Shown here: positions 1 to 8,355 of the stretch, piece after piece
Numbering within the stretch: the first letter of the stretch is position 1
How the letters are laid out: each line of letters opens with the position of its first letter
From: Candidatus Desulfovibrio intestinavium
Lineage (GTDB): Bacteria > Desulfobacterota > Desulfovibrionia > Desulfovibrionales > Desulfovibrionaceae
Assembly (NCBI GenBank): GCA_019118345.1
Contig: DWZD01000019.1
Coordinates: 1 to 64,000 of the forward strand
Length of the DNA: 64,000 bases
Direction: 5' to 3'
Notes under the pieces: generated by a model
What the model was told of the DNA's origin: nothing
The model's input: the letters and a program-made list of their open reading frames with translations, nothing else
Database searches by the model: none
Position numbers and translations under genes: made by a program

Positions 1-219
1 GCATGATTACTATGTGACTTGTTATGTATAGCCATGTAGTCTATACCTCTTTCATTTCTGTATATCAGTTGTAATTTTCACTACTCATGAAGCGGGAGTT
101 TGCGCCGTACCGAACGCATGCGAGGAAGCCACGTAACGGAGGGACATCTTAGCTTTTTAGGACGGGGGAATCAATATAAATGCAGCTTACTGGTATACCA
201 CTCAAAAAAGAGTACTTTT

Positions 220-1013
220 ATGCTAGAGCCGCAAAATGATAATATTTACGAACTCGTTATTGATAATTCTTACTTCATTTTCATTGGCAATGATAGCTTC
301 AGCGAAGAGATAGACTATTTTAGGAAACTCAGCGTCCAGCAGCCTTTCAGCATTATCACAGATTACGATAGCCAATATTCAAAGATTGGTGCATATTATT
401 GTCGGCTGACACAAAGTCAAACAAAGATTTCTTTACTAATGACATTCTAGAACGAACAGAAAAAGTAGGCCATATTTTTATATTCTCTGACATGAGTACC
501 GATGAAGTAGCTAAAGTGACAGCAAATATATGCGAACTATCAAAAGACAAACAGACAACACTCATCATTAAGCCAAATACAATCTTAGACAAAAACACCG
601 TCATAAACATCTCCAAACATGCCAATATCACCATAGTTTCACAGATTAAAGATAAATCTTTCAATATCTTCAAGGTAGCTTACTTAGCCATTAGCCATAT
701 TCTAAACAGTCTTCGCGATACCGAAGAAGAGCATATTTTCGGAATCCTCAGCTATGGTAGTGCAAAAGGCTATCTCAGCGGCATAAAGTCATGCGTTCAA
801 GCAATCGAAGGACTAGAATCAAGCTACCGCGAAAAACTACAAGATCTCAATCTAATGATTTCCGCTGCCGATGATGTGCCATTTACAGAGGTAGGGAGTG
901 CTTTTAAATTCCCCGCAGACATACTTGGATGCAATGGCAGTATAATAACCGACACGGAAAGGAACCCGCAAAGCACAAGCCTGGATGTGCTGGCGCTTGC
1001 TTTTGCAGGCTGA
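220..1013 (+). pseudogene. Divergent FtsZ/tubulin-superfamily protein, interrupted by a frameshift (ORF 100..450 continues in ORF 399..1013)
   Basis: Joined translation follows FtsZ order by eye: 'FIFIGNDSFSEEIDYF..FSIITDYDSQ' vs 'IKVIGVGGGGGNAV..FFAVNTDAQ'; 'VGHIFIFSDMSTDEVAKVTANICELSKDKQTTLIIKP' vs '[40 protein letters not shown]'; 'ISKHANITIVSQIKDKS' vs 'LSKHVDSLITIPNDKL'; C-terminal 'TEVGSAFKFPADILGCNGSIITDTE..LDVLALAFAG'. Frame change between about 372 and 450. Confidence 0.6.
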
Positions 1014-1137
1014 TTGTCTGACGTATTTTTTTCAAATTTTATGGTACGTATGGCGTAGCGCAGCGCCATAACGCGCAGAACGTGTTGAAATCGAAAAATA
1101 AATACCCCACATTCTAGACAGTTAAAAACAAAACCAA

Positions 1138-1204
<67 letters not shown>

Positions 1205-4248: not shown

Positions 4249-5523
4249 CTAGGCCGTGCGGGAGCGGGTTCCCTCCAGCATGTTCAGGGCCAGCGATTCT
4301 TCCTCCCGGAAGCGGTTGTGGACGGACTGCTGAATATCGGCGCTGTGCCCGCCAAACTGGCCGGAACGAATGTCATAGACCCGGGAAATGAGGTTGCGCT
4401 CGTACGTCCTGCCGCTGCCGCTGCTGGTGGCGTCGGCCTGTTCAAAGATGCGCACCGCCCCGCGCGCGCCATGCTGCACCGCCGTGCTCCAGATGACTTC
4501 GCGCATGATGGGCGACAGCTCGTCCAGATTCAGGCGCGTGCGCTCCGTGATTCCCGCCACGGCGGGATCATAGTGGCTTTCGCGGATGAAGGATTCCTGC
4601 AGCTTGCCGAAGCGTTCGGGCTGCTCGCTCGCAATGTCGCGCCAGGTATCGGGCATGGCGCCCTGCCGGCTGCCGGTATTGGCCGGGCCGGCATCGCGCA
4701 GCCGCCGGGAGATGTCCGGGGCCTCATTGTCCAGAAAGGACAGAAAGGCGTCCATGGTGCCCACGCGGGAGGCAATCTGGTATTTGCCGTAGGACGTGCC
4801 GCCCTTGCTGTCATAGCCGATGGCCGAAATGCCCGCCTTGCCGGACTCGAAGCGCGCCGACAGCGAGCCGATTTCCTCGCCGCCCCGCTGCGCGCCCTCG
4901 CCGCGCCGCTGCCGCGCGGAACGGCGTCGTGCCCGCGCCGCCGCCGCATCCGAGGCATTGTGCGTGCGTACATAATCGTCATGACTCAGGGCGCGGATGA
5001 CGTTCTGATCGCGCATGGAGAGGCTCAGGCCCGGCAACTGCCGCGCCACATTGAAATTCCGCGCACTGGACAGGGGGGAGTCGTCGCTGACGCCCATGCC
5101 TTCCATCAGCCCTTCCAGCGCCTGGGTGCGCTTGATGTCCTGCGAGGCTTCGGAGAACAGCCGCCCCTGCATGACCTCGCTGGGACTGCGCCCGGCCATG
5201 ACCGCCCGCTGGAACACGGCAACGCCCCGACCATGCAGCGGCATGCCCGGCACCTCGGGCCGCGGCGCGCGCGCCTCAGCGCCCTCTTCCGCCGGGGTCG
5301 CCGCAGGCGCGCCGGCCCGGGGAGACTCCCCGCCCGGGGCGCCGTCCGCCTTGCCCCCTTCCCCCGCCGCGCCGGCAGACGCCCGAACGGCGTCCGTCCG
5401 CGCCGTTTCCTTGCCGAGCAGGGCGGCAAAGCCCTCCCCGTCTTCCGGCTTACGGTTTTGCGGCACGGAAAGTGTGGCCTGCCGCTCCAGGGGCGGTTGG
5501 ATATGGGGCAATGAATTTGTCAT
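4249..5523 (-). CDS. Protein with C-terminal lysozyme/peptidoglycan-hydrolase-like domain
   Basis: Region SARFESGKAGISAIGYDSKGGTSYGKYQIASRVGTMDAFLSFL resembles phage/VgrG-associated muramidase-like domains. Confidence 0.5.
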   Translation of the reverse strand: MTNSLPHIQPPLERQATLSVPQNRKPEDGEGFAALLGKETARTDAVRASAGAAGEGGKADGAPGGESPRAGAPAATPAEEGAEARAPRPEVPGMPLHGRGVAVFQRAVMAGRSPSEVMQGRLFSEASQDIKRTQALEGLMEGMGVSDDSPLSSARNFNVARQLPGLSLSMRDQNVIRALSHDDYVRTHNASDAAAARARRRSARQRRGEGAQRGGEEIGSLSARFESGKAGISAIGYDSKGGTSYGKYQIASRVGTMDAFLSFLDNEAPDISRRLRDAGPANTGSRQGAMPDTWRDIASEQPERFGKLQESFIRESHYDPAVAGITERTRLNLDELSPIMREVIWSTAVQHGARGAVRIFEQADATSSGSGRTYERNLISRVYDIRSGQFGGHSADIQQSVHNRFREEESLALNMLEGTRSRTA

Positions 5524-5716
5524 GCAATCCCTCCATGCAGGGCAGCGCGTTTCTGACAGGCTTCCCTGCATGGAGAACATTAGCAAAAAATGTGCGAGAA
5601 CAAATTTTCTTACGGATTACACCATATTGAAAATAAAAACGCGCCGGATTGCCGCAGAAGGAAACGACGGAAGAACACCGGCGTCAAGAAGCTGACGACG
5701 CGTGCCCGCCGGGAGA

Positions 5717-6391
5717 CTATTTTCCGTCCGCGCCCTTCGTCTTCGCGCCCGCCGGCGCAGCGGCCGCGGCATGGGGATCGGCTGTTTCCGCCGCATGGTG
5801 CAGGACAGGAACGCAGATTTCCGCCGCCAGCCGCCTGCCCACATCCGCGGGCAGCCCCCTGTCGGCATCAAGGGTCTTGCGGGCCTGCAGGCCCAGCCGC
5901 ATCTGGCTGTTGGCCACGGCCTGCCGGTTGGAAATGCTCTGCAGGGCCTGTTTCTTGCCCGCGCGCGGCACACGACGCAGCACCAGCAGGGCGTCGGCCA
6001 CCAGCGAAGTATGGCCTTCGCCCGACAGATGAACCGGCGCGCCGTAGCCGGCGTCCACACTCTGCCGCAGGGCTTCGGTGCTCGAAGGATCACAGGCAAG
6101 GACGGAAATCTGCAGGATATAGCCCGCCTGACTGGGATTGCCGGTCAGCTCGATGCCGTGGCTGCGCAGCCGGCTTGCGATCTCGCCGTGCAGATTGCCC
6201 ACGAGGGCGGTGCTGTCGCGCACATTGACGTAGGCCACATCCGTGATGTCCGTCCCGGCCTCATCGAGTTTGCCGTGGCGGTAAACATCCAGATCGCCGG
6301 CCTGTTGGGACGACGGCTTCACGCAGCCGCCGGCAAGGGGCAGCAGGCAGGCAAGGAGCAGCAGGACAAGGGCATTCCGAAACTGTTTCAT
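5717..6391 (-). CDS. TraT-like lipoprotein
   Basis: Lipobox LLPLAGGC; 'VAYVNVRDSTALVGNLHGEIASRLRSHGIELTGNPSQAGYILQISVLA' matches TraT order. Confidence 0.65.
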   Translation of the reverse strand: MKQFRNALVLLLLACLLPLAGGCVKPSSQQAGDLDVYRHGKLDEAGTDITDVAYVNVRDSTALVGNLHGEIASRLRSHGIELTGNPSQAGYILQISVLACDPSSTEALRQSVDAGYGAPVHLSGEGHTSLVADALLVLRRVPRAGKKQALQSISNRQAVANSQMRLGLQARKTLDADRGLPADVGRRLAAEICVPVLHHAAETADPHAAAAAPAGAKTKGADGK

Positions 6392-6936
6392 CTGCATATC
6401 CGTTTGGTATGGCGCATCCCCGACGTCAGGGTCGGACAGCGTCAGCGCCCGACCGGCACATTGGGCGAGTTTTTTTGCGGAACGACCGCGGCCATGCATC
6501 GGTCAGGCAGGGGATCGTTTTTGCAGGCGGAGCTGCGCCGCATGTTTTGGGGCACGCCGCCGCGCTCGCGTCCGGCTGAGACGTGGATGCCCATGCGCGA
6601 CCGGGGCGAAACTTCGCCGCCATGCGCAGCCCCCGAGCCTCAGGCAGCCTCATGGGCGATGCGGAAGGCCGGATGGGCCTGCGCCTCCTCCGGCCCATCC
6701 GGCAGGAAGATGTCCGCATGCCTTGCGGGGGCCGGCAAAACGGCCCTTTGATGCAAGCCCGGGATGTTCCGGCAGAGGAGGCAACGGAACCACGCCGCCG
6801 CACGCCGAAGCAAAAAGAGCGGCGCATCAACCTGCCCTCTCAGGGTTCCTTCATGCTATACCCGAAGCGGGCATCGCCTGTCCACCGTTCCGGGCGCGGG
6901 GCAAGGGCGAGCGCGCGGCAGCCGCGGATCCTGCCG

Positions 6937-7629
6937 TCATGACGAGGACGGCTCGGCTTGCAAGGCCTCGCAGATGCGCTCAGCCAGTTTTTCATACAGG
7001 ACGGGCAAGGCCTTTTCCCGCTCCATCTTGCCGGAATTGACAAGGAGGATCTTTTCCTCACCCGGCGTTTCGCCGTGCCCGATGCTCACGCTTGCCCGCA
7101 TGCTCCATGTGGGCTGGGGAAAAAAGTCCCGCACCATGAGGACGGCTCCACCGGGGATGGCCAGCACAACGGCGATTATGCCCTTGACGGGCGTGTCGAG
7201 AATGCTGTCGCCGCCACCGCCGCTGCGACTGCCGCCGCCGGACAGGCTGGCGCTGCCGAAGCCGCCCCTGAAGCCGGAAAGATTGAGATCCATGAAGCCC
7301 TTTGCCACCTCATACGGGCGCAACAGGGTATCGCCGGAAAGGGGGCGGCAGGATACCACGAAAAAATCCTCTTCCTTCACCCGGATCACGACGGCATCGG
7401 GGCGGGCATCGACCAGCCCCGTCAAGTCGTTGTCCCGCAATTCCCGATCAAGGACGGCGCGGAATTCCCCCTCGTCAAGATGCTCTCCCGTGAAATCCAG
7501 GCAAAAGATCTCTTCTCGCTTCACGGTCAGCGGTGTCACTTCCCCCTTGTCCAGCCGGCCGGCGCAGCCCGTACAGCACAGCAGGCCCGCCAGCAGCAGG
7601 CAGGCTGTCCGTTTGCCGAGGGATTTCAT
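6937..7629 (-). CDS. TraT-like/glycine-zipper lipoprotein paralog
   Basis: Signal LLLAGLLCCTGC; shared core 'TWSMRASVSIGHGETP'; Gly/Ser-rich segment. Confidence 0.6.
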   Translation of the reverse strand: MKSLGKRTACLLLAGLLCCTGCAGRLDKGEVTPLTVKREEIFCLDFTGEHLDEGEFRAVLDRELRDNDLTGLVDARPDAVVIRVKEEDFFVVSCRPLSGDTLLRPYEVAKGFMDLNLSGFRGGFGSASLSGGGSRSGGGGDSILDTPVKGIIAVVLAIPGGAVLMVRDFFPQPTWSMRASVSIGHGETPGEEKILLVNSGKMEREKALPVLYEKLAERICEALQAEPSSS

Positions 7630-7692
7630 GCGGGCGCGGCGGGGCATCGGCAATTCTCCCAAAACTGACGGCATGCTGTCCCGACCTCGACA

Positions 7693-8355
7693 TCACGAGC
7701 CGCAGGAGGCCCCCAGGATGGCCTCCGCCATACGCATCGCGATCCAAGGCATGGCCTTGTTGCGAGGCTTGCCGAGATCGTTATTAATGATGACTTCCTC
7801 CAGCTCGTCCGGCGGCCTGCCCAGAGCTATGCCCACGCCGGCGCGCACGGCCCAGATTTCTTGGCAGCTCTCCATGGCAAAACCGATCCCCCCCAGCATG
7901 CCGACGCCCATCCCCAGGAGAGCGCCCCTCACCGGGCCGACCTCCCGTGCGCCCAGGGTGCCCCCCAGCACACAGCCCACGATGCCGCCGCCAATGGCCG
8001 TGCCCACCCAGCGAAAGGGGTTGAAGCGGCACCCCTTTCTGGCTCTGAACATCTCGCGCATTTCCACCTTCACCATCACCGTATTCTCGTCAGGCGTATC
8101 AACGACCTCCCATCGGCCCCTGTCGATCTGCTCCCTGAGACATTTTCTCAAGGCGTTGACTTCATCCTCACTGGTCTCGCTCGTTCCCGATACGTCCAGA
8201 TAAAAGCTGCGGTAGTCATCGCCCAGCCCCGTGGGGGTAAGCCAGCACTTGTCCGGCGGCTTTGCCGCGCAGCCCGGCAGGCAAAGGCAGAAGCTCAACA
8301 ACAGGACAAGCAGAAAATGCGAAAGACTACGGTTCCACCTGAAACGATGCGACAT
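7693..8355 (-). CDS. TraT-like/glycine-zipper lipoprotein paralog
   Basis: Lipobox CLCLPGC; FYLDVSG; Gly-zipper; IWAVRAGVGIALGRPPDELEEVIIN; RBS ggaggag. Confidence 0.7.
   Translation of the reverse strand: MSHRFRWNRSLSHFLLVLLLSFCLCLPGCAAKPPDKCWLTPTGLGDDYRSFYLDVSGTSETSEDEVNALRKCLREQIDRGRWEVVDTPDENTVMVKVEMREMFRARKGCRFNPFRWVGTAIGGGIVGCVLGGTLGAREVGPVRGALLGMGVGMLGGIGFAMESCQEIWAVRAGVGIALGRPPDELEEVIINNDLGKPRNKAMPWIAMRMAEAILGASCGS

Follow-up and report, generated by a model that had tools for sequence, protein, structure and literature searches.

A lineage-restricted gene near the distal end of a tRNA-Ser(GCT) integrative element in Desulfovibrio, and its undecided relation to FtsZ

The stretch of DNA analyzed here (the window, 64,000 nucleotides) opens with the first base of contig C1 in the 2.53-Mb draft genome of Candidatus Desulfovibrio intestinavium. 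Comparison with related genomes indicates that it begins with the far end of a decayed integrative element, from which the integrase is gone and in which the last gene, here called FZL (220..1013, plus strand), is frameshifted. FZL is a real gene under purifying selection; its 264-aa product is of alpha/beta type and looks soluble. The reading we favor, to which we give about an even chance, is that of an accessory gene without an assigned fold, located just inside the distal attachment site and presumably having a role on the side of defense.

The gene is present in the window as two overlapping frames, 220-450 and 399-1013. The first 58 codons are read in frame 1 from the ATG at 220, while the remainder lies in frame 3 and ends with the TGA at 1011-1013. 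DNA alignment revealed a one-base difference at 393..394 (plus strand) which shifts the frame with respect to all three relatives that were found. Because the intact relatives read through as a single open reading frame, the comparison confirmed that the two frames are one gene, split by one base missing between 393 and 394. An earlier note on this DNA had joined the open reading frames 100..450 and 399..1013, and rightly so, as the counterparts in two other genomes (G095 and G096) are each one uninterrupted frame of 264 aa when read from the shared start; all of the residues cited in that note were likewise found in the sequence. Alternatively, the frameshift could be a sequence or assembly error, since position 1 of the window is also the end of a contig. 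The delineation of FZL as a frame-broken gene for a lineage-restricted protein of approximately 264 aa rests on the frames, the intact relatives, dN/dS estimates, and a GC content of 0.39 versus 0.64 for the window.

Three further copies of FZL were recovered when 288 genomes belonging to the family were searched, all from the same genus: G095, which is Desulfovibrio piger PG-251-APC-1, G096, and G052. The G095 and G096 products are 81% and 80% identical, respectively, to the C-terminal 204 aa of the window protein, and the G052 copy has two in-frame stops and lacks its 3' end. By Nei-Gojobori counts, dN/dS was 0.23 between the intact copies of G095 and G096, and 0.25-0.30 between the window copy and the intact copies; these values mark FZL as more than a chance open reading frame. 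Searches of 348 genomes of the class and 395 genomes of the phylum brought up no copy from any other genus, viral-contig scans and phage tblastn gave none from phages or viral contigs, and plasmids yielded no credible match. Matches to Rhizobium plasmids at 23.5% identity (E 0.1) had no annotated gene beneath them and were set aside as chance. Sequence searches of Pfam, NCBIfam, PHROGs, PADLOC, and PDB with FZL produced chance-level matches only, and a pilin match obtained with phmmer (E 0.0014) disappeared when a three-sequence profile was used.

The earlier note had placed the gene on a mobile element beside an att site, and both points were borne out. The distal attachment site, identified by sequence identity, is a 66-bp segment at 1138..1203 (plus strand) corresponding to the 3' end of tRNA-Ser(GCT), whose intact gene in the window's genome is at G000:C42:2136-2230. 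In G096 and G095, which carry intact elements, 66-bp direct repeats with 0-1 mismatch in 66 bound the element at both ends, one repeat being within the intact tRNA gene and the other just beyond FZL. The block at 176-1204 of the window occupies this end in three elements, and the fourth genome has a truncated copy of it. Alignment showed the leader at 176..219 (plus strand) to be the start of the block common to all four copies; within it, the intact copies have AAGGAG, which resembles a ribosome-binding site, where the window has AAAGAG. On the other side of the gene, a conserved spacer at 1014..1137 (plus strand), also defined by alignment, leads to the attachment site and contains a TATGGCG/CGCCATA inverted repeat read from the sequence. 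Comparison of the copies further revealed a leader repeat at 90..175 (plus strand) that is common to G095 and G052, not G096, and is part of a 330-bp repeat occurring twice in tandem in G095. These two tandem copies (94% identical) lie just before FZL at L007:18153-18850; G052 has one copy, and a remnant is seen at 90-159 of the window.

Taken from end to end, the sequences make up a small integrative element using tRNA-Ser(GCT), with a length of 7,575 bp in G096 and 9,160 bp in G095. A tyrosine integrase adjoins the tRNA (PF00589, E 2.4e-21 in G096, with the G095 copy 97% identical), followed in order by genes for a 127-aa HTH-like protein, a 273-aa putative Rep, a 193-212-aa protein, a 205-aa protein, the cargo, and FZL; the first five of these genes constitute the core. 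The putative Rep, which would be of rolling-circle type, has a weak match to the G2P-type family PF23343 (E 0.0042, 17.8 bits versus a cut-off of 27.8). FZL is the last gene of the element, coming after a variable cargo consisting of an N6/N4 methyltransferase and a type II endonuclease in G096, a TetM/TetW-family tetracycline-resistance protein in G095 (L007:15418-17337), and a zinc-ribbon protein in G052. No mobilization or packaging genes were identified in the element. It resembles known small tRNA-targeting integrative elements having a tyrosine integrase and Rep in its integration at a tRNA-Ser 3' end, its direct repeats, and its variable defense or resistance cargo, but differs from them in that the Rep match is weak and below the family cut-off. 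In G096, a second integrase gene is found directly past the distal attachment site (L006:9910-11283), and for this reason two elements may be present in tandem at that tRNA.

The other end of the element in the window's own genome is on contig C42. There the tRNA gene is accompanied by a 205-aa gene in truncated form and by cargo consisting of an endonuclease of EcoRI type and the end of a methyltransferase gene that is cut by the contig boundary. The endonuclease is 230 aa long, matches EcoRI at E 1e-99, and is located with the methyltransferase at G000:C42:1-1473 (L053). No close copy of the integrase was detected anywhere in this genome, and a gap in the assembly separates C42 from C1. Elsewhere in the window, the minus strand carries three adjacent lipoprotein-like genes at 5717-8355, of which the first matches TraT above the cut-off and the third weakly. 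At 4249-5586 is encoded a protein with a C-terminal domain matching a VgrG3-like C-terminal family (E 9.8e-33). An Rfam scan of the window gave no match.

Sister elements with integrases 44-45% identical were found in G093, G058, and G036; two of these elements lie in the vicinity of tRNA-Ser(CGA). They carry a different protein, of 200-202 aa, next to the 205-aa core gene, and adjoin TIR, caspase-like, or helicase genes; no recognizable FZL relative was found in them. The 200-202-aa protein (L073:12676-13278, L074:13357-13965, and L075:4196-4798) is Rossmann-like, has a GxGxxG-like stretch KRIAFIGIGDIGNAAADAVH, and matched no family. Its kinship with FZL was considered and found to be unsupported (hhalign P 0.24). 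The genes for TIR-TPR, TIR, ThsB-like TIR, and caspase-like proteins adjoining the sister elements (L073:10131-12527 and L074:16362-19346) are probably defense cargo.

FZL had been proposed to follow FtsZ block by block while having lost all GTPase signatures. The loss was upheld by a pattern check, in which none of the copies was found to have T1, T3, T4, or T7: each is without the glycine-rich T1, the tubulin signature T4 (GGGTG[TS]G), and the T7 synergy loop NxDxxD. By eye, the order of hydrophobic strands and helices is like that of FtsZ (PF00091 and the FtsZ C-terminal domain), and the segments KVDNIFIFSDM, LIIKP, GSAKG...AIE, and DDVSFKEV are collinear with it; FZL falls short of the FtsZ core by about 50 residues, however, and its sequence and profile scores against FtsZ are not significant. 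With a profile built from 29 FtsZ sequences of the order, FZL scored like its shuffles and like 108 natural proteins, local PSSM comparison at standard gap costs gave a z of about 0 to 0.8, and hhalign a P of 0.24-0.36. The block-by-block correspondence was thus unconfirmed beyond chance by hmmsearch, local PSSM, or hhalign, all of which ranked FZL with shuffles or natural proteins. PhuZ of phage 201phi2-1, on the other hand, reached a z of 10-12 on the FtsZ profile at standard gap costs, with no shuffle as high, but fell to chance when the motif columns were masked. Since PhuZ is a genuine relative and is also at chance when so masked, these sequence tests are powerless for an FtsZ lacking the motifs.

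A chaining of chosen blocks, placed at the strands and helices of FtsZ, ranked FZL ahead of 186 of 186 natural pieces with two block sets; with a third, 1-5 of the 186 scored higher. The z values of all sets ranged from 2.0 to 4.6, and permutations of the block order scored as high in just 0-13 of 300 trials. Blind tiling of the FtsZ profile on FZL gave a z of about 0.1 to 2.2, with a mean near 1. The chosen-block result is not taken as proof, because the blocks were picked after the resemblance had been seen and the blind tiling signal is weak. AlphaFold models of FZL (pLDDT 47.2 with the three-row alignment) and of its C-terminal 204 aa (pLDDT 39.5) were built from alignments of two or three rows, no distant relatives having been found, and were too poor to judge the fold; the strand-helix order of both low-confidence models fits FtsZ, but also many other alpha/beta proteins. 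Foldseek searches with the models found nothing at E ≤ 0.001, the best matches being unrelated proteins. With the second model, three chains of M. tuberculosis FtsZ took ranks 15, 25, and 26 (E 0.34-0.47), whereas no FtsZ was among the best 50 with the first, and no named FtsZ or tubulin was among the best 50 in the viral library.

The divergent FtsZ-like proteins of the FtsZl1 and FtsZl2 families typically accompany an ordinary FtsZ encoded by the same genome. Their nucleotide-binding core is reported to be conserved, with all motifs in FtsZl2 and those up to helix H5 in FtsZl1; most FtsZl1 operons contain a vWA gene (PMC2875224, Biol Direct 2010). FZL differs in being without the nucleotide-binding motifs and without a vWA neighbor, no vWA match having been found among the profiled genes of the element. 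PhuZ (gp59 of phage 201phi2-1) also comes from an invading element, as would an FtsZ-like FZL, but it has kept the GTPase motifs and is found readily by the same profile. In the part of the literature covered, no description was found of a motif-less FtsZ on a mobile element.

These considerations bear on the suggestion that FZL is a degenerate, nucleotide-independent protein of the FtsZ/tubulin fold, acting as decoy or inhibitor by binding the FtsZ of the host or a phage tubulin, which we regard as rather unlikely. Speaking for it are the compatible strand-helix order of the models, the M. tuberculosis FtsZ chains retrieved with the second of them, and the chosen-block chaining in two of three block sets, and set against these are the missing profile match, the hhalign values, PSSM scores far below that of PhuZ, a blind tiling z of only about +1, and the Foldseek results with the first model and the viral library. 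That the protein has the tubulin/FtsZ fold at all is doubtful, and it is similarly improbable that the element carries a tubulin-fold protein devoid of the nucleotide site and kept by selection because it caps, poisons, or titrates the FtsZ of the host or the tubulin of a phage. For the roles put forward in the earlier note, as FtsZ inhibitor, decoy, or partner of a second FtsZ, nothing was found in support: the window's genome gave a single PF00091 match, as did every one of 40 further relatives, with no paired second FtsZ, nor did the element itself yield another FtsZ-like gene.

The main alternative to an accessory role is a core role in the element: FZL would then not be cargo but would serve replication, copy control, or stability, or would confer immunity to a second copy. 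This we also think unlikely, even though FZL keeps its place at one end in both intact elements, as in the remnant of the window, whatever the cargo, and the sister elements have another Rossmann-like protein of about 200 aa by the same core gene, since those sister elements contain no recognizable relative of FZL and the other core genes are all at the tRNA end. It is very improbable that FZL is on its way out, having escaped selection; two of the four copies are broken, by the frameshift in the window and by the stops and truncation in G052, but the dN/dS of the intact pair and that to the window copy both argue against lost selection. We return to the accessory gene as the favored reading, on which the element anatomy, the variable cargo, the restriction to one genus, the purifying selection, and the defense genes by the sister elements converge. 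Its presence in both intact elements regardless of cargo counts against this reading, as it would fit a core function too, and for a defense role no credible match of FZL was found in PADLOC, Pfam, PHROG, or NCBIfam. As an accessory gene, FZL would be expressed from the edge of the element, its product acting in the host cell alongside the variable defense cargo, and might protect the element or the host against competing phages or elements.

Were the FtsZ fold to prove true, FZL would add to the FtsZ/tubulin superfamily a member that is free of nucleotide and carried by a mobile element, and would represent a natural means of interfering with division or with phage tubulins. For the D. piger group, the comparisons bring out a family of small tRNA-Ser elements in which genes for restriction-modification and tetracycline resistance travel along with proteins specific to the lineage.
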